Assembly: GCF_008085915.1 (NCBI RefSeq)
Contig: NZ_VSJK01000004.1
Location: 1 to 64,000, forward strand
Length of the DNA stretch: 64,000 nt
Source: Oceaniovalibus sp. ACAM 378
GTDB taxonomy: Bacteria; Pseudomonadota; Alphaproteobacteria; Rhodobacterales; Rhodobacteraceae
Direction: 5' to 3'
Positions 1 through 13,537 of this stretch are shown here, in pieces (the first letter of the stretch is position 1; every line of letters begins with the position of its first letter). The position numbers and the translations under genes were made by a program. The notes beneath the pieces were generated by a model that was not told the DNA's origin, searched no databases, and saw nothing but the letters and a program-made list of their open reading frames with translations.

Positions 1-119
1 AGATAGCGGCGGAACTCCCAGGCGACGAAGCCGTGACTGTCCAGCCGCACCGATGATGAGATCGGGTATTCGGGCAGAGAAGAGGTATCAACCGGGATTA
101 GTGCAGCGGAGGCATTCAT
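1..119 (-). CDS. Unknown element protein, N-terminal 39 residues only
   Basis: The reading frame opens with ATG at 119 and runs off the left edge. Its ATGA overlaps the stop of the upstream HD-hydrolase gene, so the two are probably translationally coupled. The visible part contains YPISSSVRLDSHGF; a tyrosine-proline-rich start followed by RLDSH is, from memory, a recurring opening in phage-encoded hypothetical proteins of Rhodobacterales. The function is unknown and only the start can be seen. Confidence 0.65.
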   Translation of the reverse strand, partial: MNASAALIPVDTSSLPEYPISSSVRLDSHGFVAWEFRRY

Positions 120-640
120 GCGACATCTCCCCTGCCTGATCCGTCGACCAGCCGCGCAACCGAATTGTAGCAATCCAGAGCGTAGGCCGTGGCTAACAGC
201 CACCCTCGCGCCTCGGGCCAACCATCGCCGCTCATCACCCATGGCCCATGATGCGCCGCCCACTGAAACGCGTCGAGACGGTCAGCGAACCGCAGCCAGA
301 GCTGGTCGGAATCAGTCAAACTAGCGCCACTATCTGGGCCAGCCGCACCAGACCACAGACGGCGGCGCTCGGCCTCTTCGGCAACCTCCAACCACTCAGC
401 CAGTTCAGGCGTGGAATCTTTCGCGGGCGCAGGAACGTCGCCTACCGCGCTCTCGCCGTCATCATGGATCAGCGCGTGGCACAGCAGGGATACTGAAGGC
501 GACGGATGCAGCGCGATCAGGATCCGAGCGACCCGTGCGCTGTGCCCGTCGATCCGATCGCCTGTGGTGGCCAGATCGGGATTGGTATGCCAGCGAAGAA
601 CACAGCCCGCACGAAAGATCGCCTTGAGGTCCATCATCAT
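116..640 (-). CDS. HD-domain hydrolase, YfdR/YfbR-like (probable nucleotidase)
   Basis: This 174-residue protein has an HD-superfamily metal site: His33 in DGHSAR, then His59-Asp60 in LIHDDGES, followed by GDVPAPAK. The HD-x2-E-x3-GD-x-P-P-K pattern is typical of YfbR-type 5'-deoxynucleotidases and of the prophage protein YfdR of Escherichia coli. The likely role is hydrolysis of nucleotides during element replication, but the substrate cannot be read from sequence. It overlaps the methyltransferase upstream and the unknown gene downstream by 4 bp each, so it sits inside one leftward operon. A DUF2303/YfdQ-like gene also occurs in this element. Confidence 0.7.
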   Translation of the reverse strand: MMMDLKAIFRAGCVLRWHTNPDLATTGDRIDGHSARVARILIALHPSPSVSLLCHALIHDDGESAVGDVPAPAKDSTPELAEWLEVAEEAERRRLWSGAAGPDSGASLTDSDQLWLRFADRLDAFQWAAHHGPWVMSGDGWPEARGWLLATAYALDCYNSVARLVDGSGRGDVA

Positions 641-1380
641 ACGCTCCCATATCCAAGCTCAGCGCCGACGCAGAGGGCACTTTCCAGTCGCGCACAGGCC
701 ACGTCGAACCATTTGCGTTCCAGCTCAATCCCCACGGCCCGCCGGCCAAGTGCGGCGGCGGCCAACAGCGTCGATCCCGAACCCGCGAAAGGATCGAGAA
801 CCAGACCCCCCGGCGGGCAGGAATTGGCGATGTAATGCTGCATCAGCGCGACCGGCTTTTCAGTTTTATGACCGGACGTGCGCGCGGCGTTCAGTGTGAA
901 CAGCTGCTTTGATCCGCAATCGGCGATGCCCTGCGGTGCCGCGAGCCCCTTGAACAGATAGAGCGTGAACTCGCAGTTCTTCATGTACCAGCGGTTGCGC
1001 GTGGCGCGGATCTTGTCCCAGACCAGCAGGTTGTGAAACGCGAACCCGGCGCCGGTGAACGCGGCATGGGCAGCCCAGACGTTTTTGTCGTTTGCCATGA
1101 TGTAACAATCGGCATCGTCAGCGCAGGCCCGGAAGATCGGTCCGCCCATGTGGTGCCAGGGCACGCTCGGCATCAGATCGCCGCTGTTGTCATAGACATC
1201 TTGCGAGAACAGCCCGCCCATCACTTCGGTGGCATTGCCGCCCGAGGTCAGCGGATAAGGCGGATCGCTGACCACGCAATCGGCGCGCATCCGCCCCAGC
1301 TCAGGCAGCACTTCCCGCATATCGCCCAGATACAGCGTGACATCGCCAATCACGGCATGATCGACGATGCCGCCCATCAC
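637..1380 (-). CDS. Beta-class DNA methyltransferase (N4-cytosine or N6-adenine)
   Basis: The 247-residue protein carries motif IV DPPY at residues 39-42 and the SAM-binding motif I LDPFAGSGST at 195-204. DPPY before the FxGxG motif is the beta-class order of amino-methyltransferases. Catalysis would be SAM-dependent methylation of an exocyclic amine in DNA; DPPY more often marks N6-adenine enzymes. No restriction endonuclease is adjacent, so it is probably an orphan enzyme that protects or regulates element DNA. Its stop overlaps the HD gene and its start overlaps the preceding 101-residue gene, showing operon structure. The recognition sequence is not predictable. Confidence 0.85.
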   Translation of the reverse strand: MMGGIVDHAVIGDVTLYLGDMREVLPELGRMRADCVVSDPPYPLTSGGNATEVMGGLFSQDVYDNSGDLMPSVPWHHMGGPIFRACADDADCYIMANDKNVWAAHAAFTGAGFAFHNLLVWDKIRATRNRWYMKNCEFTLYLFKGLAAPQGIADCGSKQLFTLNAARTSGHKTEKPVALMQHYIANSCPPGGLVLDPFAGSGSTLLAAAALGRRAVGIELERKWFDVACARLESALCVGAELGYGSV

Positions 1381-1682
1381 GCCATCCCCCGCGGAACAGC
1401 CCGAACCGGAGTGCGCTCGCGCATCACCACCTCAAGCGCCTGTTTGCGACTATAGCGGGCCCGGGTCACCAGCAGCTTTACATCTGCGGCCTGCGCGACT
1501 GTCAGCCCCTGCGCTGCCAAACTGTCCTTCTGGACCTTGACCATTGCCCAACGACAAAAGGTCTGCAGCGGATCGCGCCCGATCTTGGTCTCTCGCGAAA
1601 TCTTCTCAAGGCACTCGCCCGCTGCGGCCATCGCGATGATCCGCTTCTGGACATCCAGCGGTATTTTCATACGACGGCTCAT
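1377..1682 (-). CDS. Unknown 101-residue element protein, possible HTH
   Basis: This is a small basic protein coupled by ATGA overlaps to the methyltransferase downstream and to the 132-residue gene upstream. Residues about 5-45 (IPLDVQKRII ... ISRETKIGRDPLQTF) read like a helix-turn-helix with a short recognition segment, which would suit a terminase-small-subunit-like or regulatory DNA-binding protein, but I do not recognise a family. Position inside the early leftward operon supports an accessory role in element replication or regulation. Confidence 0.6.
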   Translation of the reverse strand: MSRRMKIPLDVQKRIIAMAAAGECLEKISRETKIGRDPLQTFCRWAMVKVQKDSLAAQGLTVAQAADVKLLVTRARYSRKQALEVVMRERTPVRAVPRGMA

Positions 1683-2077
1683 TCCGCGCCCTGCCCCAGA
1701 GATATTCGCGCGACGGCCACGGCCGCACCCCGGCCCTTGCGGGCGTTTGTCACGTTGCCCAGGCTGATGCCGCGGATATCGGGAACCCCCTGCGCCAAAC
1801 GCTCACAGAATGCGTCATGCTCCAGTCCCAGCATGTCGAAAATCGCGCGGCATTCCCGCCCTTGCAGCCAGCTCAAAGCCCGCTCGCGTTCAAACTGGCG
1901 CTTGCGCCCCTTGAGGTCAGTGCGCCCGGTCATCGTGCTGACCGGACTTGCCACATGCAGTTCGGCCAAGACCCGCGCACACCACAATCGGCGGCAGGCG
2001 ACGGGATCGATGTCGCTGTCGTCATAGACCGGGCGCGCAGGACCATCGGAAACGAGAACGGGATAATGGGTTGTCAT
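1679..2077 (-). CDS. Unknown 132-residue element protein
   Basis: A charged soluble protein with no signal peptide or membrane segment and no recognised motif. The middle is rich in arginine (RKRQFERERALSWLQG). It overlaps both neighbours by 4 bp, so the frame and start are supported by operon architecture rather than by a family match. It could be a DNA-associated accessory protein; I cannot assign a function. Confidence 0.6.
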   Translation of the reverse strand: MTTHYPVLVSDGPARPVYDDSDIDPVACRRLWCARVLAELHVASPVSTMTGRTDLKGRKRQFERERALSWLQGRECRAIFDMLGLEHDAFCERLAQGVPDIRGISLGNVTNARKGRGAAVAVARISLGQGAE

Positions 2078-2298
2078 TTCGCCCCCTTGACGCGACGGAA
2101 AAACTTTTCTCTCTGTTGCTTGAACCGGGCGGCCCTGTGGAAATCCTCGTAACTTGACGCCCGCGCATAGGTCGCGCGAAACCGCCGGTCATAATACCGA
2201 GCTGCCATCCGCCAGCAGGCCAGTCGGATCAGCCGCAATCTGTGCCAGGGAGCGAGAACAACGAACTCGGGGATATCGACACGCCGATGGCGCGTCAT
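2074..2298 (-). CDS. Unknown 74-residue basic protein
   Basis: This is a very basic, arginine- and aromatic-rich small protein (for example RLIRLACWRMAARYYDRRFR). It overlaps both the upstream 123-residue gene and the downstream 132-residue gene by 4 bp. The composition would suit nucleic-acid binding, but there is no recognisable domain. Confidence 0.55.
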   Translation of the reverse strand: MTRHRRVDIPEFVVLAPWHRLRLIRLACWRMAARYYDRRFRATYARASSYEDFHRAARFKQQREKFFRRVKGAK

Positions 2299-2666
2299 GG
2301 CGCCCCACCATAAATCAGGTCCAGAACCGCCTCACCTCCGGCCATCATCAGCACCGGCAGGTAATACCGGAACGATGGCGCATTATCTGTGCTCAACCAG
2401 TTGCGCACCGTCTTCGGGTGCACAGGCCGGTCTTCGGTTGTCAGTTGCCCCGCGACCAGTGCAGCCAGATCAGCCTCGGATCGTGCTTCGGGAAACGCGC
2501 GCCAAAGCAGCGCGGCGAACATCCGGCGCTGCTCATCTTCCGCGACGACAGTTTTTTTCATCCGTCGCGATTTTGGATAAGACTTTTCCACTCTCGATGC
2601 TCCATGCTTGACCTGTGAGGGATCGTTTGGAGCAACAAAGGACAGGAGATGGGGTGCGGCGGTCAT
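2295..2666 (-). CDS. Small DNA-binding-type element protein
   Basis: This 123-residue protein has a C-terminal half containing VHPKTVRNWLS, which reads as the second and third helices of a helix-turn-helix, followed by a hydrophobic stretch (YYLPVLMMAGG). It is the second gene of the leftward early operon, directly after the Cro-like gene and overlapping it by 4 bp. A second N-terminal methionine (residue 36, MKKTVVAEDE) could be the true start. It is plausibly a regulator of the lytic/lysogenic decision or of replication. Confidence 0.55.
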   Translation of the reverse strand: MTAAPHLLSFVAPNDPSQVKHGASRVEKSYPKSRRMKKTVVAEDEQRRMFAALLWRAFPEARSEADLAALVAGQLTTEDRPVHPKTVRNWLSTDNAPSFRYYLPVLMMAGGEAVLDLIYGGAP

Positions 2667-2869
2667 GCTGCATCCCGTTTCTGTTCGGGCGGATTGGCCG
2701 CCATAAAGGCGCGGAGCCGGTCAACAGATGCCATAGTCGGACTGGACGCGCGGGCCTTCCAGCCCGCCCATTGGCCCCATCCCGCTCCAATGGCATCGCG
2801 CAGGACCTTCTGCGGAAGTTTGTCGACAGAGGCCGCATAGGCCTCGATTTCGCGGATCAGGTTTTCCAT
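2663..2869 (-). CDS. Cro-like HTH protein, first gene of the leftward operon
   Basis: This 68-residue protein has PQKVLRDAIGAGWGQWAGWK followed by SPTMASVDRLRAF, which fits a small lambda-Cro/CI-type helix-turn-helix. It is transcribed divergently from the S24 repressor and separated from it by 88 bp holding two operator palindromes, the classical cro/cI arrangement. The start lies only about 7 bp beyond a plausible -10 box and has no Shine-Dalgarno sequence, so the mRNA may be leaderless. The Cro assignment comes from position and helix pattern, not from a clear family match. Confidence 0.6.
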   Translation of the reverse strand: MENLIREIEAYAASVDKLPQKVLRDAIGAGWGQWAGWKARASSPTMASVDRLRAFMAANPPEQKRDAA

Positions 2870-2876
2870 GCCAATC

Positions 2877-2906
2877 AGTATTGGTGAAACTTCCCCAAAA
2901 CTTCAA
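2877..2906 (-). promoter_or_regulatory. Promoter for the leftward (cro-like) operon
   Basis: On the minus strand a -35 TTGAAG (2906-2901) is followed by an 18-bp spacer and a -10 AATACT (2882-2877). The operator palindrome at 2883-2896 lies entirely in the spacer, so repressor bound there would block RNA polymerase. The predicted start is about 2870, at the ATG itself. Confidence 0.5.
2883..2896. promoter_or_regulatory. Repressor operator 1 (GGTGAAACTTCCCC)
   Basis: A 14-bp hyphenated palindrome with half sites GGTGAA and TTCCCC and a 2-bp centre. The same sequence occurs in inverted orientation at 4867-4880. It lies within the leftward promoter between the divergent cro-like and repressor genes. 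Confidence 0.7.
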
Positions 2907-2920
2907 GGGGAAACTTCCCG
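2907..2920. promoter_or_regulatory. Repressor operator 2 (GGGGAAACTTCCCG)
   Basis: Second copy of the palindrome, 24 bp from operator 1 start to start, with half sites GGGGAA and TTCCCG. It covers the region just upstream of the leftward -35 box and toward the repressor gene, a position suited to repressor autoregulation. Confidence 0.65.
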
Positions 2921-2957
2921 GTTCCATGCAAACAGGTGCACATTGCATAAGCCTGTT

Positions 2958-3626
2958 ATGGATAAGCACGTTGATCCCTTTGTCGAAGGGCTACTTCGAG
3001 TAATGGCCGCTCGAAAATTAAAGGCTTCCCCGCTGTCCAAGGCGGCAGGCCTTGGCGAGTCGTTCATCCGCGACCTTGCGTCCAATCCCGACAGCTCACC
3101 GAAAATATCCAATGCTCAAAAATTGGCCGATACTTTAGGATTATCGATCGACGACATCATTGCCGCAGGGACCACCTACAACGACCACCGCAGCCCCATT
3201 GCTGTTGTCGGACATGTCGGCGCTGGAGCCCGCGTCCCGCTATCCGACAGCTACGCCAAGGGCGATGGCCATTATCACGTCGTCTGCCCGCCACAGCTTT
3301 CACCCAAAGGTCTGGCCTGCGTAGAAATCTGTGGCGACTCCATGGAGCCTGCCTATCTTGACGGCGACCTTCTTTTCTATTCCCGGCCCTCGATGGGTGT
3401 TCCTTCCGAAGCAGTGGGTGCGCGCTGCATCGTCGAAGACGAAAAGGGCATGGCATGGGTCAAACTGGTGCGCCGCCGCGAAGGACAGCCCGAAGGTCTG
3501 TTCGATCTGGTCAGCTTCCACGCCGATCACCCACCAATGTATGATTGCGCGCTACACTGGGCTGCACCGATCCTGATGCATCAGCAAAGGGCATTTGCTG
3601 AACGCATCGAACCAGCGGGCGATTGA
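2958..3626 (+). CDS. LexA/CI-type repressor with S24 self-cleavage domain
   Basis: The 222-residue repressor has an N-terminal XRE-type helix-turn-helix (about residues 5-65, including LSKAAGLGESFIRDL) and a C-terminal S24 peptidase domain. The nucleophile is Ser128 in CGDSMEP and the general base Lys169 in WVKL. An Ala-Gly pair at residues 89-90 (GHVGAGAR) is a likely self-cleavage site, which would make the element inducible through RecA during DNA damage. ATG 2958 is chosen because an upstream in-frame start would place coding sequence over the operators and because family proteins begin just before the HTH. Its own -10 (CATAAG, 2946-2951) would give a leaderless mRNA. Confidence 0.85.
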   Translation: MDKHVDPFVEGLLRVMAARKLKASPLSKAAGLGESFIRDLASNPDSSPKISNAQKLADTLGLSIDDIIAAGTTYNDHRSPIAVVGHVGAGARVPLSDSYAKGDGHYHVVCPPQLSPKGLACVEICGDSMEPAYLDGDLLFYSRPSMGVPSEAVGARCIVEDEKGMAWVKLVRRREGQPEGLFDLVSFHADHPPMYDCALHWAAPILMHQQRAFAERIEPAGD

Positions 3627-3695
3627 ACAGCCGCGCTTGCCAGACCACTTTCCACCAACCTATGGTCGCTCCAGGGCTTTCAAAAAGGCAAAGAA

Positions 3696-3998
3696 ATGAT
3701 TAACGCACTGGTTGCATTCGCAAAATTCTTCCTCGTGGTCCAGGTGATCGTCGGGGGTTCGTTGTTTATCGGCCTGGTCTTGATATTGAGCCTCACAGGC
3801 ACTGTCACCATGTGGCAGATGATTGCCATGGCAGGCGGCGGAGTCGGCCTACTGGCCACTGCTGGCTTTGCTGCCGTCTTGTTCCAGATAAGCGACCGCC
3901 TTGCACAGCTCATTTCTCAAAACCAGACGGGGCCTCAGGCTCTACCTCGCCAAAGTGGCACTTCACGCCGAGAACCCGCATTGCGCAGCGACCGTTGA
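3696..3998 (+). CDS. Small two-helix membrane protein, unknown
   Basis: This 100-residue protein has two hydrophobic segments (about residues 10-35 and 40-65: FFLVVQVIVGGSLFIGLVLI and MIAMAGGGVGLLATAGFAAV) and a polar C-terminal tail. It lies 69 bp after the repressor on the same strand, between the two operator pairs, where lambdoid phages keep exclusion and accessory genes. A superinfection-exclusion role is possible but only a guess; no family was recognised. Confidence 0.55.
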   Translation: MINALVAFAKFFLVVQVIVGGSLFIGLVLILSLTGTVTMWQMIAMAGGGVGLLATAGFAAVLFQISDRLAQLISQNQTGPQALPRQSGTSRREPALRSDR

Positions 3999-4028
3999 AA
4001 ACACGATAGATTTGCAAGGAAAGCATGA

Positions 4029-4163
4029 ATGGCCAAGAAACCTGCCGCCCCTCCTATTTTCAAACCCCCGAGCATCACCCGACCGAGCGTCCGGCCAGGC
4101 GGGGCCGGGGCCAGCGTCCAACCCAGCAGCACACCCACCACCGGTGGCAAGCCACCCAAGTGA
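4029..4163 (+). CDS. 44-residue Pro/Lys-rich small protein
   Basis: A short frame begins MAKKPAAPPIFKPPSITRP and ends GGKPPK. It has a good Shine-Dalgarno sequence AAGGA at 4016-4020, 8 bp before the ATG. The low-complexity, basic, proline-rich composition is consistent from end to end and differs from the two overlapping frames, supporting real translation. It has no recognised family. The small size and basic charge would suit an RNA- or protein-binding accessory peptide. Confidence 0.55.
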   Translation: MAKKPAAPPIFKPPSITRPSVRPGGAGASVQPSSTPTTGGKPPK

Positions 4164-4181
4164 CGGCGCACGCCAATCTAA

Positions 4182-4780
4182 TTATTTCAGCCGAATCTCA
4201 ATGCGCGCGATTTCGGATGGCGGCAGATAAGTCATACGGGCACCCCAGCCGTCGCTCAGAATCCCATCTCGCACCGTGAGCTTTCCATCTCCGACCACTT
4301 CTTCATCGACCGCCATAACGATACTGCCGTCACCACCAAGATATATTCCTTCCCATGGCGCATGCTTGAACGGCGCGCGATCCGTAAGGTACAGAATGTC
4401 GCCACCTCGAGTGTGCACAGTCAATTGAGTTACGGCACGACCCGATTGCAACAACCCGTCCCAAGCTGAGTGCACCCCATCCTCGCGATGAACTCCGGAT
4501 GCGCGCATTGCCAGAGCCAAACCTTGCGCCCCACCATCCGCCACAGGCAAGCACACGCAAGGCTAGTAAGCAGCGCCACGAGGCCCGCAGCAACGGTGCC
4601 CCACGCTTCGCCAAGGACGAACGCAACTGATGCGATAGAAGCGAAAACCAGCGAAATGAAAATTGCATCCCGCGCGAGATGCCCGCGACGGTAGCCGGCA
4701 TAGGCCGTGCAATACCCCAAATATCCTGCGGCCAGAGCCACCTGCACCGCCAGCGATTGGCCGAAAAATCCCAACTCCAC
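4182..4780 (-). pseudogene. Frameshifted two-part membrane protein gene
   Basis: Translation from GTG 4780, preceded by AAAGGA at good spacing, gives three hydrophobic segments (starting LGFFGQSLAVQVALAAGYLG) up to about 4535. From about 4530 a different frame continues with ASGVHREDGVHSAW, then TVHTRGGDILYL, and ends TYLPPSEIARIEIRLK. Both halves look like parts of one family of about 200-residue prophage-associated proteins (membrane N-terminus, soluble C-terminus), so one base appears to be missing near 4525-4535. A sequencing error, a real inactivating mutation or frameshifting during translation are all possible. I do not know the function. Confidence 0.6.
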
Positions 4781-4866
4781 GCCAATTCCTTTCAGTAAAA
4801 GCTCGCCACCTTTGCGCGCACAGCGGGAAACTACCACGTGATTCGCGCATCTGTCGACGGCACGAT

Positions 4867-4880
4867 GGGGAAGTTTCACC
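4867..4880. promoter_or_regulatory. Repressor operator 3 (GGGGAAGTTTCACC)
   Basis: Exact reverse complement of operator 1. It is paired with operator 4, 29 bp away start to start, upstream of the rightward operon. Confidence 0.7.
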
Positions 4881-4888
4881 TTTTTTTC

Positions 4889-4917
4889 TTGACGTGGTGA
4901 AAGTTCCCCATCATTAA
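4889..4917 (+). promoter_or_regulatory. Promoter of the rightward element operon, overlapped by an operator
   Basis: A -35 TTGACG at 4889-4894 is followed 17 bp later by a weak -10 CATTAA at 4912-4917. Operator 4 (4896-4909) fills the spacer, the same layout as at the leftward promoter, so the repressor should silence both operons together. Confidence 0.55.
4896..4909. promoter_or_regulatory. Repressor operator 4 (GGTGAAAGTTCCCC)
   Basis: Fourth copy of the palindrome, differing from operator 1 only at the second centre base. It lies between the -35 and -10 boxes of the rightward promoter. Confidence 0.65.
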
Positions 4918-4946
4918 TGATCTTCATCACTCGATGGAGAGACGAC

Positions 4947-5276
4947 ATGAACATTCTCACCCCGATCCATGCGGCCAGTCTTGTCGAACAGAACATCGCC
5001 GAGGCCATCGCGGATGACACCGGCGATCTGGTCGACAAGACGGCGCCCGCTTTCAATAGCAGCCGCGCGCAACTTCTCGGCCGCACGATCTGTGCCCTGA
5101 TCGCCCGCCTCCATGTGCTCGACCGCCCGGCGACCGAACAACTGCTGCTGTCCTATCTCGACCTGATCGCGCCGCAATCCTGCCTGACCCACGAAACCCT
5201 GACACAGGCGTTCGATGGCGCACTGGATGATCTCGCCCGCGCCGAAGCCCGCAAAGCCGCCGGAGATCCTGCATGA
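4947..5276 (+). CDS. Unknown 109-residue element protein
   Basis: This is the first gene of the rightward operon. ATG 4947 is chosen over an earlier ATG at 4917 because GGAGA lies 6 bp upstream and because 4917 falls within the promoter. It is a soluble, largely helical and acidic-to-neutral protein (for example QLLGRTICALIARLHVLDRP) with no recognised motif. It overlaps the next gene by 4 bp (ATGA). Confidence 0.6.
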   Translation: MNILTPIHAASLVEQNIAEAIADDTGDLVDKTAPAFNSSRAQLLGRTICALIARLHVLDRPATEQLLLSYLDLIAPQSCLTHETLTQAFDGALDDLARAEARKAAGDPA

Positions 5277-5503
5277 CACATCCGGTCGATCACTGCCCCG
5301 CCGGTCGCGCCGCCCACGCTTTTCGGTCCATGCCCCAAAGCCACTTCGATCGCGAAGCCACGGCCCGCAGCCGTCGCGCGCTTCTGAGCGGTATGATGAT
5401 CGCAATCGCCCTGTTGCTCGCCTTCGTCGCCGGAACCTTTGCCAGCCGCGCCATCGCCCAGGCAGCCCATGACGCAATCTGGGTCGAGCCGTTCCATGGC
5501 TGA
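5273..5503 (+). CDS. Single-pass membrane protein, 76 residues
   Basis: The N-terminal 38 residues are polar and basic. They are followed by one strong hydrophobic segment (about residues 40-62, MMIAIALLLAFVAGTFASRA) and a short tail. It is coupled by an ATGA overlap to the upstream gene. No lipobox or cleavable signal is evident, so it is probably an inner-membrane anchor protein of unknown role. Confidence 0.55.
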   Translation: MTHPVDHCPAGRAAHAFRSMPQSHFDREATARSRRALLSGMMIAIALLLAFVAGTFASRAIAQAAHDAIWVEPFHG

Positions 5504-5594
5504 CCCGGCCAACCCGTTGCCACACGCGCGGAGGCTCCTTCCTCCCGCCCCGGGCGCACCTGCGGGCGGCACTCCCCTGCCGCCCACCCTTTAA
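5496..5594 (+). CDS. Possible 32-residue Pro-rich peptide
   Basis: A short frame overlaps the end of the membrane protein gene (ATGGCTGA) and would be translated by coupling. It reads MADPANPLPHARRLLPPAP and ends in PTL. There is no good Shine-Dalgarno sequence. GC-rich DNA readily gives proline/alanine-rich spurious frames, so this is only a candidate. Confidence 0.25.
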   Translation: MADPANPLPHARRLLPPAPGAPAGGTPLPPTL

Positions 5595-5628
5595 CACCGC
5601 GCGCAGGGCATCCCGCCCAACGCGCCAA

Positions 5629-5667
5629 GGGGCGCCCACCGCTCACGAAATACCCCCCGGGCGCCCC
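5629..5667 (+). other. GC-rich inverted repeat
   Basis: Nine-base arms GGGGCGCCC (5629-5637) and GGGCGCCCC (5659-5667) with a 21-base loop lie in the gap before the next gene. There is no T-run after it, so it is not a clear terminator; it may stabilise or segment the operon mRNA. Confidence 0.3.
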
Positions 5668-5690
5668 GCAATCCTTCGAAAGGACCAACA

Positions 5691-6089
5691 GTGAACAGCC
5701 CCATGATCCACGATCCCTACAAGATGCGCACGGTCGAACAGATTCTCGCACTGTTTGACGGTGGCGACTTTCTTGAAAAATTGCTGGCCGATCACCGGCA
5801 ACTGCAGATCGATCTGATGGACCACCGCGCCGAACACGGCGGAAAGACCGAAGGGTCTATGACGATCAAGATCCAATATGCGCTCGGCAAACAGGGTGAC
5901 GTTGCCATGGGCGCTCAGGCTGATTTCAAATCGCCCAAAAAGCCGCCCAGCAGCGCCGCCGCCTTCATCAACGAGAACGGCGATCTGACCCTGTACAGCC
6001 CGTTGCTGGCCCGCATGCAGCACCCGGTCCGCGACACCGCCGAGTCTGCGCACGACCCCGATACCGGCGAAGTGCGCGACGCCATCTGA
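5691..6089 (+). CDS. Unknown 132-residue element protein
   Basis: GTG 5691 is preferred because AAAGGA lies 6 bp upstream; an ATG four codons later is the alternative. The protein is soluble and contains EQILALFDGGDFLEKLL and a central Lys/Pro-rich loop (KSPKKPPSSAAA). It directly precedes the DUF2303 gene with a 32-bp gap and probably works with it. I do not recognise a family. Confidence 0.6.
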   Translation: MNSPMIHDPYKMRTVEQILALFDGGDFLEKLLADHRQLQIDLMDHRAEHGGKTEGSMTIKIQYALGKQGDVAMGAQADFKSPKKPPSSAAAFINENGDLTLYSPLLARMQHPVRDTAESAHDPDTGEVRDAI

Positions 6090-6121
6090 TCCATCCACGA
6101 CCGCGAAGAAGGAACACTCGC

Positions 6122-7117
6122 ATGAAAGACGACAATCTCATCATCGGCCCGATGGAAAACCCCGGACAGACTGTCCAGAAACTGATGACCGAACTGGGCA
6201 CGGTCGACTCAGTGCCCGATATCGACATTGGCGATATCGACACTGCGTGGCTGGTGTCCGTTCCCGAAGGTCGCAAGATCGAGAACCTTACCAGCTTGCG
6301 CATCGCCGCCGCTGAATACTTCGCACCCCAGCGCCGTCGTGGCACCGCGCGCCTTGCCGATCTGCAGAGCCTGATTGACTGGACCAACCGGTTCAAAGGC
6401 GAAAACTCTGCACTCTACGCCAATCCCGACATGGAACGCCCGACGCTGGAATGCATCGCTGATTACCACGCCGAAGGCCCGGGAGTGCCATTCGGCAACG
6501 ACACCACCGCACGCCATTGCGCCCATCGGGGTCGATATGCCTTTCCGCTGTCGAAGGAATGGAAGCGCTGGATGGCGATCTCGGGCAAACCGCTCGACAA
6601 GGACGAAATGGGCGAGTTCATCGAAGCCAACGCCAAGGATGTTATGGATCCGACCCCGGCCCTGCTGAAGCTGGAAGACGCCGACAGCAATCAGTCGTGG
6701 GAAACCCGCCTGATCCAGACTGCCCGCCACATCGAAGGGCGCTACGGGCAGTTGGGCCAACTGCTGGCGATGTCACGTCAGTTTCAGGTCTATGAAACCA
6801 GCAACCTTGCCGTGACCAGCAACCGTGACACCGGCGAATCCTCGATCCAGTTCTTGAACGAACACAACGACAAGGACGGCGCGCCGATCAAGATCCCCAA
6901 TCTGATCATCATCGGCATTCCCGTTTTCGAGAATGGCGCCGCATACCGGATGCCGGTTCGGTTTCGCTATCGCAAGTCCGGCAGCGCCGTGAAGTTCATC
7001 ATGTCGATTTACAGCCCCGAAAAAGCGTTCGATGCCGCCTTCGACGAAGCGCTGACCACCGCGCGCGATGGAACTGAACTACCACTGTTCCTCGGCCAAC
7101 CCGAAACCAACACCTGA
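6122..7117 (+). CDS. DUF2303 family protein (YfdQ-like)
   Basis: This 331-residue protein matches my recollection of the DUF2303/YfdQ prophage family. It has a central LADLQSLIDWTNRFK, an HRGRYAFPLSKEWKRW segment after a short insertion, and a long beta-rich C-terminus. YfdQ is a prophage protein of Escherichia coli CPS-53 whose biochemical role is unknown. It is full-length, has no signal or membrane segment, and sits mid-operon between an unknown gene and a 49-residue gene. A role in element DNA metabolism is suggested by position only. Confidence 0.75.
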   Translation: MKDDNLIIGPMENPGQTVQKLMTELGTVDSVPDIDIGDIDTAWLVSVPEGRKIENLTSLRIAAAEYFAPQRRRGTARLADLQSLIDWTNRFKGENSALYANPDMERPTLECIADYHAEGPGVPFGNDTTARHCAHRGRYAFPLSKEWKRWMAISGKPLDKDEMGEFIEANAKDVMDPTPALLKLEDADSNQSWETRLIQTARHIEGRYGQLGQLLAMSRQFQVYETSNLAVTSNRDTGESSIQFLNEHNDKDGAPIKIPNLIIIGIPVFENGAAYRMPVRFRYRKSGSAVKFIMSIYSPEKAFDAAFDEALTTARDGTELPLFLGQPETNT

Positions 7118-7176
7118 CCTGCAGCCTCTTTCTGGTCCCTGCGCGCAGGGGCCAGCGACGGACTGCAGGAGGAAAT

Positions 7177-7326
7177 ATGTCGACCAACAACGCCACGCCC
7201 TGGGCCAAGACCGGCCTTTACCGCGCCCACACGCCAACCGGATGGGCCGTATACTGCAAAGCCTATGGCTTCGCCCGACCAGCCACCGCCGATGAGGCAA
7301 AGAGCCAAGAGGTCCGCGATGACTGA
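7177..7326 (+). CDS. 49-residue small element protein
   Basis: A short frame starts MSTNNATPWAKTGLYRAHTP and ends SQEVRDD. A very strong Shine-Dalgarno AGGAGGAAAT lies directly upstream. Its stop overlaps the start of the next gene in ATGACTGA. The run of aromatic residues with a single cysteine (WAVYCKAYGFARP) and the tight coupling argue for a real gene. No family was recognised. Confidence 0.6.
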   Translation: MSTNNATPWAKTGLYRAHTPTGWAVYCKAYGFARPATADEAKSQEVRDD

Positions 7327-7513
7327 CATCACCCCCAAAATGAAACACGCCGCCGCCCTTCGCGAGCTGCGGATGCGCCGCAAGGTCTATCCCCGGCAGA
7401 TCAAGTCGCGGCGGATGAAACAGGCCGACGCCGATCACGAAATCGCCGTGATGCAGGCCATCGCAGACGATTACGCCGAGCGGGATCTGCTGGGCGGACA
7501 GACTGATGCTTGA
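7319..7513 (+). CDS. Unknown 64-residue basic helical protein
   Basis: ATG 7319 overlaps the preceding stop and the gene's own end overlaps the methyltransferase start, so it is fixed between two coupled genes. It is strongly basic in the middle (RELRMRRKVYPRQIKSRRMK) and acidic at the end. It could be a nucleic-acid-binding accessory protein. An upstream in-frame start at 7265 would overlap the 49-residue gene and is not favoured. Confidence 0.6.
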   Translation: MTDITPKMKHAAALRELRMRRKVYPRQIKSRRMKQADADHEIAVMQAIADDYAERDLLGGQTDA

Positions 7514-9638
7514 CGCAACCCAACCCATGATCATCGACAGCTTCGCCGGTGGCGGCGGAGCAAGCACCGGCATTGAGCTGGCACTTGGCCGCAGCCCTGA
7601 CGTGGCCATCAACCACAACGCCGCCGCGTTGGCGCTGCATGCGGTCAATCACCCGGAAACGCTGCATCTCGACAGCAATATCTGGGACGTCGCACCACTG
7701 GACGTCACCAAGGGCCGGCACGTCGGATTGCTCTGGGCCAGCCCGGACTGCAAGCACTTCTCGAAAGCGAAGGGCGGCGCGCCGAAAGACCGCAACGTCC
7801 GCGATCTGGCGTGGGTCGTCGTCGACTGGGCCGAACAGGTAAAGCCGGATGTGATCCTGATGGAGAACGTCGAGGAGTTTCTGACATGGGGTCCGCTGGG
7901 TGAAGACGGCCAGCCGATGAAGGAGTTCGCAGGCATGACGTTCGAACTCTGGATCAAGCGGCTGCGCAAGGCCGGTTACCGGGTCCAGTGGCGAGAGCTG
8001 CGCGCATGCGACTATGGCGCTCCGACAATCCGAAAGCGGTTCTTCATGGTGGCGCGGCGTGATGGATTGCCCATAACCTGGCCCAAACCAACCCACGGGG
8101 ATCCGAAGTCAGCCCCTGTCAAGTGTGGCAAACTTCTACCGTGGCGCACCGCGGCTGATTGCATCGACTGGTCACTGCCCTGCCCGTCGATCTTCGACAC
8201 TGGCCCCCAGATCATGGAAAAGCACGGCCTGCGCGCTGTGCGTCCGCTGGCCAAGAACACGATGGCGCGGGTTGCGCGCGGCATGAAGCGTTATGTTCTG
8301 GATTCCGAACGACCATTCATCGTGAATTTGACCCACGGCGCGCGAACCGAAGACATCGCCGATCCGTTCCGCACAATCACCGGCGCCAACCGTGGCGAGA
8401 AGGCCGTTGTCGCTCCGTCGATCACCCGCTTCAACGGCGGAGCGACCGGGCAGGATCTGCGTGAACCGATGGCAACCGTAACCGCGAACAGCTTCATCAA
8501 GCGCCCTGGTGGCGCGGCCCCTCTGGGCCTGATCGCGCCCTCTCTCGCCACCTACTACGGGCATGGCGGCCCACGTGGGACGCGGACTGCGGACCTGTCG
8601 GAACCGCTGCGTGCCGTGACTGTCGGGAACAGGCACGCGCTTATCGCGCCCTGCTTGATGAGCCTCAAAGGAACTGCGCGGCGGGCGAGCGGTGCAGACA
8701 CCCCACACCCAACTGTTCTGGCGGGCGGCGGGCATTCGGCATTGATCGCACCCCTTATGGCGACGATGCGCAACAGCCAGAAGCCATGGCAGGGATGCAA
8801 CCAGCCAGCCCACACGATCACCGCCGGCGGTGCGGGACTTACTGTGATCGCGCCTGTCCTAACATATGCGCAGCAAGGTGGCCGGTGCCGTTCAGTCGAT
8901 GACCCGCACCACACGATCTGCGCCAGCTCGAAAGATCAGAATGCAGTGATCGCCCCGATGCTGATACAGACCGGCTATGGCGAGGCTCCCGGCCAGGCAC
9001 CGCGATCGCTCGACATTGGCGCACCTTTGGGCACAGTCGTCGCGGGCGGCGTCAAACATGCGGCCGCCGCTGCGTTTCTCGCCCAGCACCACACCGGAGC
9101 CACCGGTCACGATGCCCGCGACCCGTTCTCGACCGTCGCCGCCACAGGCAGCCATCAGACACCTGTCGCAGCATGGTTCGCGAAATACTACGGCACCGGC
9201 GACGGCGCCCGCACCGACGACCCGATGCACACGATCACCGTCAAGGATCGCATGGGTCACATGCAGGCCGCGCTGAGCGCCCCGCCTTTCACCGCAGACC
9301 ATGCGAAACGGGCGCGCGAAGTGGCTGATTTTATGCGCGCACACGATGCATGGGATGATCGTGAGTTCGTCACCCTCGACATTGGTGATGCGACCTATGT
9401 GATCACCGATATCGGCATGCGCATGCTGACCCCGCGCGAGCTGTTCCACGCACAAGGTTTCCCGCCCGATTATGTGATTGAGGGCCATTGGACTGAAACC
9501 GCCGACAAGTGGGTATGGCACCCGTTTTCCAAAAGCGTCCAGGTCAGCTGCTGCGGCAACAGCGTCTGCCCGCCACTCGCCGAAGCACTGGTGCGAGCGA
9601 ACTGCAAGCACCTGGTCGAAGAAAGGATCGCAGCATGA
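7506..9638 (+). CDS. C5 cytosine DNA methyltransferase with a nine-unit internal repeat
   Basis: This 710-residue Dcm-type enzyme methylates C5 of cytosine in DNA using SAM. Motif I is DSFAGGGGASTG near the N-terminus, motif IV is SPDCKHFSKAKGG with the catalytic Cys in PDC rather than the usual PPC, and ENV is in LMENVEEF. Motif VIII is in QWRELRACDYGAPTIRKR, motif IX in LTPRELFHAQGFP and motif X in GNSVCPPL. Between motifs VIII and IX lie roughly 330 residues made of about nine degenerate repeats of the form DP-h-x-T(I/V)T ... IAP. These occupy the place of the target-recognition domain. No restriction enzyme gene is beside it. Confidence 0.9.
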   Translation: MLDATQPMIIDSFAGGGGASTGIELALGRSPDVAINHNAAALALHAVNHPETLHLDSNIWDVAPLDVTKGRHVGLLWASPDCKHFSKAKGGAPKDRNVRDLAWVVVDWAEQVKPDVILMENVEEFLTWGPLGEDGQPMKEFAGMTFELWIKRLRKAGYRVQWRELRACDYGAPTIRKRFFMVARRDGLPITWPKPTHGDPKSAPVKCGKLLPWRTAADCIDWSLPCPSIFDTGPQIMEKHGLRAVRPLAKNTMARVARGMKRYVLDSERPFIVNLTHGARTEDIADPFRTITGANRGEKAVVAPSITRFNGGATGQDLREPMATVTANSFIKRPGGAAPLGLIAPSLATYYGHGGPRGTRTADLSEPLRAVTVGNRHALIAPCLMSLKGTARRASGADTPHPTVLAGGGHSALIAPLMATMRNSQKPWQGCNQPAHTITAGGAGLTVIAPVLTYAQQGGRCRSVDDPHHTICASSKDQNAVIAPMLIQTGYGEAPGQAPRSLDIGAPLGTVVAGGVKHAAAAAFLAQHHTGATGHDARDPFSTVAATGSHQTPVAAWFAKYYGTGDGARTDDPMHTITVKDRMGHMQAALSAPPFTADHAKRAREVADFMRAHDAWDDREFVTLDIGDATYVITDIGMRMLTPRELFHAQGFPPDYVIEGHWTETADKWVWHPFSKSVQVSCCGNSVCPPLAEALVRANCKHLVEERIAA

Positions 9639-9922
9639 CTGACCTGCGCGACAAACTCATGATCGAGATCGCAGCGTCTCGACATTTGGAAAAGTCCGTC
9701 AGCGAAACAGCCGACGCGATCCTTGCCGTGATAGAGGTGACGGATTTGCAGGAATGTCTGCGCGTGCTCATCGCCGCCGAGGAGATCAGTTTGGCCGAAG
9801 CCAAGCGGATGCAAGCGGCAGTCCAACTGCCCAAGAAGATGTACGCCGCCGATATGCTCATCAACGCCTGCAAGGCACGGCTCATCACATACCGCGCGAT
9901 GCAGAACAGGAGGGAGATGTGA
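9635..9922 (+). CDS. Unknown 95-residue element protein
   Basis: ATG 9635 overlaps the methyltransferase stop (ATGA). The protein is helical throughout and alternates acidic and basic patches (SVSETADAILAVIEV, EEISLAEAKRMQAAV). Its stop shares bases with the next start. No family was recognised. Confidence 0.55.
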   Translation: MTDLRDKLMIEIAASRHLEKSVSETADAILAVIEVTDLQECLRVLIAAEEISLAEAKRMQAAVQLPKKMYAADMLINACKARLITYRAMQNRREM

Positions 9923-10062
9923 TGGGGTTGTTTTTCGCCATGGTATGGGCCGAGGATGAGCTTTCCGCCGAACACACCGGCAAGGAAGCATACCGAGCGA
10001 TGATGCGGATGCTAAACATGGACCGGCGCCCATTGCACGAGATTGTGAAGGGGGAGACATGA
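9922..10062 (+). CDS. 46-residue small element protein
   Basis: The start overlaps the preceding stop (TGATG) and the end overlaps the following start (ATGA). The sequence begins MGLFFAMVWAEDELSAEHTG. It is short, acidic at first and basic at the end; the function is unknown. Coupling on both sides is the main support. Confidence 0.5.
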   Translation: MGLFFAMVWAEDELSAEHTGKEAYRAMMRMLNMDRRPLHEIVKGET

Positions 10063-10262
10063 CCGCATCTCAGCCCATCCCTGCCAGCGTTAAACCCACC
10101 CGCCGGGCGCCCACTTCGTCCAACGCCCGAGCGCTGGAAATGGTGCGCCAACTTCGGAGCGAAGGCCTAGACGTCGCCCGCGTCATTGTAGAAGGTCGCA
10201 AGATCGAGATCGAGATAGTACAGCAAGCCGCGCCGCAGAAAATCGACGGAGTGAAGTGGTGA
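10059..10262 (+). CDS. 67-residue protein preceding the integrase, possible excisionase position
   Basis: A small soluble protein with a proline/threonine-rich start, then a helix (NARALEMVRQLRSEGLDVAR) and a strand (VIVEGRKIEIEIV). It overlaps the integrase start by 7 bp. A small gene immediately before int is where excisionases often sit, but no winged-helix Xis motif can be recognised, so that role is speculative. Confidence 0.55.
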   Translation: MTASQPIPASVKPTRRAPTSSNARALEMVRQLRSEGLDVARVIVEGRKIEIEIVQQAAPQKIDGVKW

Positions 10263-11236
10263 AATCCGACCTTCCGAAATTCGTCTATTTTAAGGGCAAG
10301 AACCGATACCCATACTTTGTGCGCGGCAATGTGTGCCAGCGCATCACGTCAGAACCCGGTACAAATGCCTTTTGGGCAGAATACAACGGTATATTGAATG
10401 GCAATATTTCCGGCGATCCTGCCCGGACGATTAAGAAACTGATTGCCCATTATATGCGCTCACATAAATGGGGGCAGCTGGCAAAGAATACACAGAAAAG
10501 CTACATGCAAGGATTCAGATACTTTGAGGACAAGATAGCCCTGGTCGATCCGGCGAGCATCCGACGCCGCAATGTGATCGAAATGCGCGATGCTCTATCG
10601 TCCACTCCCACCACCGCCAATAGGCGCGTAGCGATCCTGTCAACGCTTATGGAACACGCAATTGATATCGACTGGATAGAGCGGAACCCGGCGAAGGGCG
10701 TCGGGTCGCTCCAGGGCACAAAAACCCGCCACCCTTGGCCTGCCGATATGGTTGAGGCCTTCCGGCGCGAGGCCGGAGGAATGCCGCTGTTGCTGTTTGA
10801 AATGTTGATCGGCACAGGCCAGCGCATTGGCGACGTGTTGAAAATGCAATGGGGACACGTCGAGGACCGTGGAATACTGGTAAGACAGGGCAAGACTAAA
10901 GCTGAGGTCTGGATACCATTCACATCCCGCCTGTCTGACGCGATTGCCGTGACACCAAAGCGCGGGCTGCACATCGTCACACAGTCATCAGGACAGCCGG
11001 TTGGATACAACTTGGCGTGGAAGTGGATCAAAGAGATACGCGACGTGATTGGCGCCGAGGCTTGGGATATCCACAGCTTGCGCCACACGGCCGCATCTGA
11101 GCTTGCCGCGCTGGGGCTGGATGATCAGCACATAATGAGCATCACCGGGCACACATCCAGCGGCATGGTACGACTCTATGCGGGCAAGGCAGCTCAGCGG
11201 GCACGGGCCAAGAAAGCACAGGAAGACCGACAGTGA
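10256..11236 (+). CDS. int: Tyrosine recombinase (integrase)
   Basis: This 326-residue phage-type integrase catalyses site-specific integration and excision. The catalytic set is complete: Arg190 (GTGQRIGD), Lys213 (QGKTKAEV), His273 and Arg276 (HSLRHTAA), His299 (ITGHTSSG) and nucleophile Tyr308 (VRLYAG). The N-terminal part holds the SAM-like core-binding domain (about residues 55-150). The start is GTG 10256, overlapping the previous gene. It is the last gene of the rightward operon and stops 80 bp before the ctrA sequence, so it is very likely responsible for insertion there. Nothing suggests inactivation. Confidence 0.95.
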   Translation: MVKSDLPKFVYFKGKNRYPYFVRGNVCQRITSEPGTNAFWAEYNGILNGNISGDPARTIKKLIAHYMRSHKWGQLAKNTQKSYMQGFRYFEDKIALVDPASIRRRNVIEMRDALSSTPTTANRRVAILSTLMEHAIDIDWIERNPAKGVGSLQGTKTRHPWPADMVEAFRREAGGMPLLLFEMLIGTGQRIGDVLKMQWGHVEDRGILVRQGKTKAEVWIPFTSRLSDAIAVTPKRGLHIVTQSSGQPVGYNLAWKWIKEIRDVIGAEAWDIHSLRHTAASELAALGLDDQHIMSITGHTSSGMVRLYAGKAAQRARAKKAQEDRQ

Positions 11237-11345
11237 ACGGAACGAAAACGAAACGAGAATTTTGAATCGCATTGGAAATGCAAAAAATAAGTTAATATAT
11301 TTCAGTTAGTTAACGGTCAATAAAGATGGTTCAGAAACATCTCTT
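11237..11345. other. Right attachment junction (attR) of the element inside ctrA
   Basis: After the integrase stop there are about 80 bp of AT-rich non-coding DNA containing several TTAA tetramers. CtrA-coding sequence then begins on the minus strand at about 11320. The crossover core must be within or just left of ATAAAGATGGTTCAG (11320-11334), which encodes the conserved NHLY of CtrA. The matching copy at the other end is outside the window, so exact core limits cannot be set. Confidence 0.65.
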
Positions 11346-11856
11346 TGGTCAGGGTCGTGCCTTTGCGCAGACTCAACAGTTCCAGCATCTGATATTCCTT
11401 TCCGGTCAGATGCACCGTTTTCCCATCAACTTCGACAGTTTTTGCATCGAGGTTTACCGCAATTTTTCCCGTCCGGATCATCGATTGCGCGTGGCCTTTT
11501 GATCTGCGGATGATTGCATGAATCCGGGCGACAAGTTCTTCGCGATGAAAAGGTTTGGTCAGATAGTCGTCAGCACCAAATCCGAAGCCTTTGATTTTAT
11601 TGTCGGTATCATCTGCGCCCGACAGGATCAGGATTGGCGTATCGACCCGTGCGAGGCGCAACTGGCGCAATACCTCATGCCCATGCATATCCGGTAGATT
11701 AAGATCCAGCAGTATAAGATCGTAATCATACAGCTTCGCCAGATCGACAGCCTCTTCGCCCGTATCAGTGCAATAGACGTTGAGGTTGGCATGGGTCAGC
11801 ATCAATTCGATACTGCGAGACGTGGTGGGGTCATCTTCGACAAGCAGGATGCGCAT
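11317..11856 (-). pseudogene. ctrA: CtrA response regulator, 3' end removed by element insertion
   Basis: CtrA is the OmpR-family master regulator of alphaproteobacteria; in Rhodobacterales it controls flagella and gene transfer agent genes. The 179 residues present contain an intact receiver domain (phosphoacceptor Asp51 in LLDLNLPD, Lys in LTKPFH) and the start of the winged-helix domain up to [10 protein letters not shown]. Family members of about 237 residues continue GGMDEPELK through the recognition helix and wing. Here the next codon is TGA and no frame downstream restores the match. The product should therefore be unable to bind DNA normally. Its promoter and the neighbouring sciP are intact. 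The 3' fragment should lie at the element's other end. Confidence 0.9.
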
Positions 11857-11905
11857 AAATCTCTCCGCCGTTTAACGCGATTGACCCCACCCTTGTGGCA
11901 AATGG

Positions 11906-11946: not shown

Positions 11947-12225
11947 TTAAAGTTGTCTATACTTTTGCAATCTGGTGGCTTTCAGCCCAGCCACCCCATG
12001 CCGGTCAACTGCCCTTTTCCAGGCTGTGAATTCTTCCTCCGTCAGCCCATAGATTGCCAGCGCCTCCTCTTGCAACAACAGGCCACCGATGACCGCCCGG
12101 ACGACGGCCGCTTTGCGACTGGCCACCCAGCGTTTGATTTTTGGATCAGGCAGATCGGCACGCGTCATCATCTGCCCTCCCGGCAGTTTGACGGCCCGTG
12201 GACCGCCAACCTTTTTAAGATACAT
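11947..12225 (-). CDS. sciP: SciP, CtrA-antagonist (DUF1153)
   Basis: This 92-residue protein starts MYLKKVGGPRAVKLPGG, includes RWVASRKAAVVRAV and ends LKATRLQKYRQL, the DUF1153/SciP signature. In Caulobacter, SciP binds CtrA at promoters and prevents RNA polymerase recruitment. Length and all recognisable helices are normal. It lies 90 bp upstream of ctrA on the same strand, the arrangement expected for Rhodobacterales. With ctrA truncated its main known partner may be absent. Confidence 0.9.
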   Translation of the reverse strand: MYLKKVGGPRAVKLPGGQMMTRADLPDPKIKRWVASRKAAVVRAVIGGLLLQEEALAIYGLTEEEFTAWKRAVDRHGVAGLKATRLQKYRQL

Positions 12226-12394: not shown

Positions 12395-13537
12395 ATGCCG
12401 CTCGACCGTCCGCATCCGATCAATTCACTGGGCTTTGCAAAACCGCCTGCCGAAACCCGCGTCGTCGTGGCGATGTCGGGCGGTGTCGACAGTTCGGTCG
12501 TGGCTGCAGAACTGGCCGCCGAAGGCTACGACGTGGTCGGCGTAACCCTGCAACTTTACGATCATGGCGCGGCATTGGCGAAAAAGGGGGCCTGCTGTGC
12601 TGGACGTGACATTCACGATGCGCGGCGCGTCGCGGAAACCATGGGATTTCCCCACTATGTTCTTGATTATGAGGACACATTTCGCGCGGCGGTGATCGAC
12701 GAATTCGCCGACAGCTATTTGGCCGGAGCGACTCCTGTGCCCTGCATCCGCTGCAACGAGCGGGTCAAATTCCGCGATCTGCTGGAAACGGCCCGCGATC
12801 TTGACGCCGACTGCATGGCCACTGGCCATTATATCCAGCGCAAGGACGGCGAGAATGGTCCCGAATTGCATTCGGCAGCGGATGCCGATCGCGACCAGTC
12901 GTATTTCCTGTTTTCCACCAGCCCCGAACAACTGGCCTTTTTGCGCTTTCCGCTCGGCCATCTCCACAGCAAGGCCGAGACCCGCGCCCTTGCCACCAAA
13001 CATGGGCTGAGCGTCGCCGACAAGCCTGACAGTCAGGATATCTGTTTCGTTCCGAACGGCGATTATGCCGCGGTTATCAAAAAACTGCGCCCAGGTGCGG
13101 CTGATCCGGGACGGATTGTCGACACCGAAGGGAATGATCTGGGCGAACATCGCGGCGTGATCCATTATACCGTGGGACAACGGCGGGGTCTTGGTATCGG
13201 CGGCCTGGAGACGCCGCTTTATGTCGTGCGGCTGGACGTCGACCGGCGCGAAGTGATCGTTGGCCCCAAGGAATTGCTTGCCACCCGCACCGTGCCGCTG
13301 AAGGAAATCAACTGGTTGGGGGATGCGCCGCTGACCTCGCGTGCGGAATGGCCGGTTGAGGTGCGCGTTCGTTCGACCCGCCCACCCCGGTCGGCAATCC
13401 TACGCCCGCTTTCCGACACCACCGGCACTGTCGAGTTGCTGACGCCTGAAGAAGGGGTTTCACCCGGGCAGGCCTGCGTGTTTTACGATCCCGAAAGCAG
13501 CCGCGTGTTCGGTGGCGGCTGGATCACCAAAGGTTAA
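12395..13537 (+). CDS. mnmA: tRNA-specific 2-thiouridylase MnmA
   Basis: MnmA activates U34 of tRNA Lys, Glu and Gln with ATP and inserts sulfur to form 2-thiouridine. The PP-loop SGGVDSS is at residues 28-34. The cysteine pair of the active site is represented by CIRC (117-120, in TPVPCIRCN) and Cys217 in SQDICFVP. The C-terminal beta-barrel region follows from [14 protein letters not shown]. At 380 residues it has the usual length. It reads convergently toward lpxB with only 28 bp between stops. Confidence 0.95.

Follow-up and report, generated by a model that had tools for sequence, protein, structure and literature searches.

The window, i.e. the whole stretch of 64,000 nucleotides analysed, forms the first part of contig C66 in the Oceaniovalibus sp. 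ACAM 378 genome (G000; 5.36 Mb in 116 contigs). As shown in Table 1, it opens with phage-type genes that end in a tyrosine integrase gene, which is separated by a gap of 80 bp from the end of an oppositely oriented ctrA open reading frame. This frame closes with the residues ..EMFLNHLY followed by TGA, and no continuation of the CtrA frame was found beyond the stop. Because sciP, which encodes a CtrA inhibitor, adjoins it, we regard the locus as the ordinary ctrA locus. In Pfam searches, the receiver domain (PF00072) of the window CtrA was whole, but Trans_reg_C was matched only over positions 1-34 of 77, leaving the truncated protein without 43 of the 77 positions of the DNA-binding domain. 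Against NF045991, the NCBIfam equivalog model for Rhodobacterales CtrA (224 positions; cut-off 350 bits), residues 1-179 aligned with positions 1-179 and scored 329.9 bits; since an intact CtrA of a relative, trimmed to the same 179 residues, scored 327.3 bits, the shortfall is an effect of truncation. The initial annotation, which had described a CtrA frame intact up to FLNHLY and then stopped by TGA, an integrase ending 80 bp away and a CtrA cut inside its DNA-binding domain, was thus accurate on these points.

Table 1. Features at the ctrA junction of the window (PF, Pfam domains; phrog_, phage protein families)
Feature	Position	Strand	Evidence or remark
Prophage, right-hand part	1..11320		Left end on C77:324011-328837; middle unassembled; phage-type genes
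DNA methyltransferase (N6_N4_Mtase)	637..1380	-	Domain and PHROG matches
Phage repressor (HTH and S24 peptidase)	2868..3626	+	PF00717, PF13443; phrog_4
DUF2303 phage protein	6122..7117	+	PF10065, 3.8e-56; phrog_210
C5-cytosine DNA methyltransferase, 710 aa	7506..9638	+	PF00145; phrog_116
Tyrosine integrase (ctrA-inserter clade), 326 aa	10256..11236	+	PF00589, 6.6e-21; phrog_1, 1.1e-42
Putative arm-type integrase site, right copy	11243..11271	+	Direct repeat of the left-end site on C77; score reached in 1/300 shuffles
ctrA, 5' three quarters	11317..11856	-	Receiver domain and start of winged-helix domain; 179 codons, then TGA
attR core TAAAGATGGTTCAGAA	11321..11336		Repeated at C77:323995-324010; 7 bp TTCAGAA (11330-11336) corresponds to the in-register stretch common to the five hosts compared
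sciP (DUF1153), CtrA inhibitor, neighbour of ctrA	11947..12225	-	NF051866, 124.4 bits (cut-off 100); PF06627
mnmA-like gene (name presumed from the sequence), chromosomal flank	12395..13537	+	Same neighbour in relative L029

The element contains an integrase and a repressor; structural genes were not found in its assembled ends because its middle is unassembled. Contig C14, whose end matches the first 200 bases of C66 at 98% identity, holds a second prophage (L181, C14:115000-130719) with nearly the same early region and a different integrase. The two prophages are 94-95% identical over window positions 1-2870 and 4828-7575 and 82% identical over 3196-3919, whereas their integrases are only 24% identical over 273 aligned residues. 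To judge from these matches, the early region common to both was probably merged into one during assembly; this would account for the contig break and for the absent middle of the prophage. Further, the combination of like early genes with another integrase indicates that integration modules are naturally swapped. At the left prophage end, on C77, an AbiJ-type gene (L043:8135-9295; PADLOC 4.6e-19; Pfam AbiJ_NTD3 and Abi_C) is followed directly by a reverse transcriptase gene matching Drt8 (L043:9299-10753; 1.1e-125), a pair that we note as phage-defence cargo near attL of the window prophage.

The remainder of ctrA was found on a second contig. Its 3' part (GGMDEPELK...) lies at C77:323859-324011, 4.8 kb from the C77 end and beside a presumed ligA-like gene, and the 16-bp core occurs in exactly two copies in the 5.36-Mb genome when up to one mismatch is allowed, one per junction (by our own estimate, an exact 16-mer repeat would arise by chance with a probability of ~0.003). 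The 3' part and core repeat that the initial annotation had suggested looking for are therefore both present, and one of the observations that it had named as speaking against its claim, the absence of a ctrA 3' fragment, was not borne out; nor was another, a full-length second ctrA, as the next-best matches of the 5' part in G000 were 35-38% identical (best five of eight). A core search of the G000 assembly returned no restored ctrA and no attP. Because the element crosses the contig break, we infer the linkage of C77 to C66 from the att core, from similar arm-type repeats at both ends and from the gene order of a relative (L029), in which ligA-like, ctrA, DUF1153 and mnmA-like genes (the first and last names presumed from sequence) are consecutive. 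Arm-type direct repeats were found at both ends of all seven elements or attP sites compared, the weakest being those of G427; their score was matched by 1 of 300 shuffles for the window, 8 of 300 for G427 and none of 300 for each of the other five. When the G000 flanks were joined in silico, they gave an intact CtrA of 237 aa with a complete DNA-binding domain, which matched all 224 positions of NF045991 (1-224) at 433.4 bits; the rejoined flanks gave intact CtrA in five of five hosts with both parts, in agreement with the earlier proposal that excision would restore ctrA exactly. The empty site is seen in relatives: ctrA is intact in all five other fetched genomes of the same genus (G001-G005; L003, L005, L006, L008, and L010). 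With both ctrA parts in hand and a core repeat at each junction, the claim that an integrated element splits ctrA stands. The chance that an assembly error merely fused an integrase to a broken ctrA is negligible: although both G000 parts lie less than 12 kb from contig ends, core and arm repeats match at both ends, the contig break is accounted for by the second prophage, and three other genomes have ctrA split with both parts on a single contig.

These and further genomes carry integrases at the same insertion point, which the initial annotation had suggested searching for. Of 20 species in the genus of G119, four (G119, G427, G428, and G442) have ctrA interrupted by such an element and 15 have it full length. 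A single contig holds both parts in G119, G427, and G428, with 47.2, 49.9, and 39.7 kb between them, respectively, whereas in G442 they are on two contigs. Phage structural genes were found in G119 (portal, head, and tape measure), G428 (head), and G427 (terminase). Pairwise alignment of the prophages of G119, G427, and G428 covered only 2.5 of 47.2 kb, 5.7 of 47.2 kb, and 1.6 of 49.9 kb; one ancestral insertion common to the three was thus rejected, there being little alike outside the integration module, and the insertions look independent because the phage bodies are mostly unrelated. Among viral records, ctrA fragments were present in 3 of 22 tested, a count that leaves out two new loci (L185 and L186): G061 carries a 79% identical integrase and then a ctrA 5' part ending FLNHLH-stop, and G446 and G448 (2 of 20 further records) contain the 3' part. 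The integrases of G119 and Pkon1, used as queries against viral sequences, found one and four loci, respectively, of which L185 and L186 were new. In the single case of G448 (L177; G448:C1:121-315), the integrase adjoins the ctrA 3' part, indicating the opposite orientation of insertion. Across 394 genomes of the family, about one per genus, 58 matched the integrase at E 1e-40, and ctrA lay beside it in 2 (our genome and G119) of the 30 of these that were fetched with 1.5-kb flanks. A class-wide search of 385 genomes at E 1e-50 gave no integrase match besides that of G000, a negative that weighs little because the rows listed were a minority and included only four other family members; the integrase scan of genome contigs gave a sole match of 12 residues. 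Overall, we conclude that the element and the split of ctrA are real and recurrent.

Two other broken ctrA genes were rejected as element insertions and left out of the counts: that of G429 (L147, C125:123794-124339), the remaining species of the G119 genus, carries a single-base frameshift within a G homopolymer, and that of G027 (L029, C371) has a frameshift with normal neighbours. Either may reflect mutation, phase variation, or sequencing error.

Comparison of the five hosts with both junctions gave an in-register common stretch, T(T/C)CT(C/G)AA, which lies in the Phe-Leu-Asn codons; for G427, the register was read from the junction sequences, as the automated call gave a chance tie. The join of phage and host falls within the Phe-Leu-Asn codons (about 174-176), in the winged-helix domain of CtrA. 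Judged by eye, an imperfect palindrome, GTT-N4-AAC, is centred on the common stretch, and the phage side has a CATCTATAT-like copy of the ctrA codons that follow. In the 31 intact ctrA genes used, the 7-mer occurs in seven versions, of which TCCTCAA (13) and TTCTCAA (6) make up the majority, and MFLNHLYGG is present in all 31 proteins.

The catalytic domain of the window integrase is present (PF00589, 75.3 bits; cut-off 27.1). Tyrosine recombinases share the catalytic residues R..H-x-x-R..H..Y, and R190, H273, R276, H299, and Y308 are invariant in five of five aligned integrases. We built a tree from 56 integrases, 53 of them different (L129, L130, and L111, the last being on the same contig as L047, were dropped), in which a 16-row clade with support of 100/100 includes the window integrase and all nine rows labelled as ctrA inserters, Pkon1 being counted among the nine by the annotation of its record. 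The sister pair of this clade, L061/L065 (96/91), adjoins tRNA-Cys, which ARAGORN confirmed at L065 but did not call at L061, whose site has Ns. Twenty tree rows were labelled tRNA by eye; run on 12 loci, ARAGORN found a tRNA in seven, with none in the labelled L061 and L125 and tRNA-Cys in the unlabelled L067 and L069. Within the clade, the contigs of L047, L112, L113, and L115 end at the integrase, so that the site is unseen, and L110 and L118 are phages with the core and without ctrA, whose cores we read as the probable attP of the free form. A further member, L107 (G442:C18:116999-118000), is the second clade integrase in a genome whose ctrA is occupied; it lies beside the start of a gene that is presumably rlmJ-like, perhaps a secondary site. 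Because L107, L110, and L118 fall inside the clade, the ctrA label requires three changes on the tree, not one. The integration module comprises ~1.2 kb at the right end and a short left end. As the remaining phage bodies are mostly unrelated, the module appears to move between phages.

Flagella and gene transfer agents (GTAs) are governed by CtrA in Alphaproteobacteria, as is the cell cycle in some species. The best-supported reading of the locus is a ctrA-aimed integration module: we estimate a probability of roughly 0.9 that a temperate phage integrated in ctrA by its own tyrosine integrase, as part of a transferable ctrA-aimed module, leaving the lysogen ctrA-null until excision. The insertion at the Phe-Leu-Asn codons divides the gene into a 5' part of 179 codons, which keeps promoter and receiver, and a 3' part beyond the opposite prophage end. 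Since clade members occupy ctrA at these codons in several hosts while their phages are otherwise mostly unrelated, the integrase behaves like a transferable module. The lysogen would be without DNA-binding CtrA and functionally ctrA-null, and phage excision would rebuild ctrA exactly. To judge from the truncated domain, CtrA function is likely lost in lysogens. What makes the site usable may be that its protein sequence hardly varies and that Rhodobacterales can dispense with ctrA. The gene is reported to be non-essential in KLH11, R. capsulatus, and TM1040, and flagellar motility is under CtrA control in Ruegeria KLH11 (PMC3692519); in R. capsulatus, its deletion leads to resistance to phage Jorvik (PMC10589892).

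The split genes show no decay. None of the five breaks any of the 166 columns invariant in the 31 intact genes, and pN/pS is 0.059-0.067 in four split genes, within the range of 15 intact congeners (0.044-0.095); in G000, it is 0.061, slightly above five intact congeners (0.044-0.055). Such conservation is compatible with recent insertion as well as with frequent excision. The genome retains a ChpT-family gene. CtrA binds sites of the form TTAA-N7-TTAA; eight element pieces contained no exact site, and one-mismatch sites occurred at the level of shuffled sequence. The idea that restored CtrA drives phage (lytic) genes is thus unsupported, there being no excess of such sites in these pieces.

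The nearest published counterpart is the Paracoccus phage Pkon1 (vB_PkoS_Pkon1; MK291442), described by Decewicz et al. in 2019 as induced by mitomycin C and as having the attB GTTTCTCAA(G/C)CAT, with a putative OmpR regulator disrupted on insertion (PMC6536676); its record places the attachment site within the gene of an OmpR-family transcriptional regulator. The attB motif, 49 bp downstream of the integrase gene, can be read as the FLNH/FLKH codons of ctrA. Because of this reading, and because its integrase (51% identical to that of the window) is in the same clade, we suggest that the published "OmpR" target of Pkon1 appears to be ctrA. Pkon1 was sequenced as an induced phage, whereas the assembly contains the window element only in part. 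The initial annotation knew of no described ctrA-targeted element. This needs qualification in that Pkon1 had been reported at what reads as the ctrA motif, but it stands as regards the name, since the target is given as "OmpR family" and the word ctrA has no occurrence in the main text of that paper (PMC6536676). No title or abstract beginning in the literature searched, mostly without subscription journals, names ctrA as a prophage target. A second counterpart in the site given is prophage vB_PpaP_PD15 of P. pantotrophus J46, listed at a "putative ompR regulator" (PMC6536676, Table 3), although PD15 is a podovirus predicted in silico and is compared here by description. CtrA-dependent phages of Alphaproteobacteria likewise have a life cycle tied to CtrA, but they need or read CtrA, whereas the ctrA inserters break its gene (PMC9437464, PMC10589892).

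What the insertion does beyond housing the phage can be read in several ways. In Listeria, the comK phage splits and restores its host gene as a regulatory switch (active lysogeny), and a programmed reversible switch is a possible hypothesis here also: the prophage would excise without killing when motility or GTAs are needed and may then re-enter. We hold this to be improbable. It agrees with the exact in silico restoration of ctrA, the undecayed state of the split genes, the retained ChpT-family gene and the inducibility of the related Pkon1 with mitomycin C (PMC6536676). However, induction of Pkon1 yields phage, with no cue or lysis-free excision known; the G000 assembly holds neither restored ctrA nor attP, and pN/pS in G000 is slightly above that of the five intact congeners. 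Further, the phage bodies differ almost wholly between close hosts, so that each insertion may be young, in which case the undecayed ctrA needs no switch. The hlb-converting Sa3int phages likewise split a host gene that excision restores, but for these, reversible lysis-free excision is stated (PMC6597384, PMC13123087), whereas the window element is known from its sequence alone; unlike both the Sa3int and comK phages, it targets a two-component master regulator. The fragment itself might instead be active, its receiver taking phosphate from ChpT or binding partners as a sink or dominant negative. A complete receiver domain, the retained upstream region and start, and the existence of a solved CtrA receiver chain (4qpj, which we take to be the complex with ChpT) are consistent with this; still, the 5' part shows no evolution apart from the 3' part and the truncated winged helix may be degraded, and we regard an active fragment as distinctly unlikely.

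The loss of CtrA could also be what is selected, as silencing of its regulon (flagella, GTAs and, in other species, pili) would protect the host both against phages that depend on CtrA and against lysis by GTA release, a superinfection exclusion through knock-out of a regulator. The Jorvik resistance of the ctrA deletion (PMC10589892) argues in this direction, as do the control of flagellar motility by CtrA in KLH11 (PMC3692519), the repeated use of the site within one genus (4 of 20 species) and the Drt8-like and AbiJ-like defence genes at the left end of the window element. Against this, a conserved and dispensable site suffices for a phage, and many related integrases adjoin tRNA genes without any such effect; we consider selection for CtrA loss conceivable but doubtful. 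Another view is that ctrA is a safe harbour, conserved in DNA and tolerably lost, whose inactivation is of no benefit to the phage, and to this we give somewhat less than even odds. The MFLNHLYGG sequence common to the 31 intact proteins favours it, and so does the position of the sister of the clade, from the same protein family of Rhodobacteraceae tyrosine integrases, at a tRNA gene, one of the conserved sites commonly used. Yet integration at tRNA genes reportedly rebuilds the target (PMC6536676), whereas the ctrA inserters break theirs, and a wide-acting regulator would presumably be a costly harbour.

A ctrA-aimed phage module would be a simple genetic cause of some CtrA-null strains, and lysogens would be expected to lack motility and GTA production. 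It would also be a natural example of mutual exclusion between a resident phage and a master regulator. Only tentatively do we extend this to the proposal that ctrA is the dedicated att site of an integrase clade passed among unrelated Rhodobacteraceae temperate phages, with the CtrA regulon turned off in lysogens and returned on excision. Such lysogens would lack motility, make no GTAs and resist CtrA-dependent phages, so that a single insertion would control both immunity and life-style.

Some observations on ctrA in other genomes may be added. Three genomes of the family, G013, G019, and G034 (completeness of 98% for G019 and 97% for G034), have no CtrA match above 39% identity among the matches listed, a possible loss of ctrA. 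In G011 (L050; G011:C58:48160-48495), CtrA matches only from residue ~118, near a contig end, and the ~316 bp beyond the partial gene are without ctrA match; this may be another interruption. Finally, near attL, the G119 element encodes a hybrid histidine kinase of 940 aa (L090:3572-6394) and a stand-alone receiver protein (L090:6421-6783).
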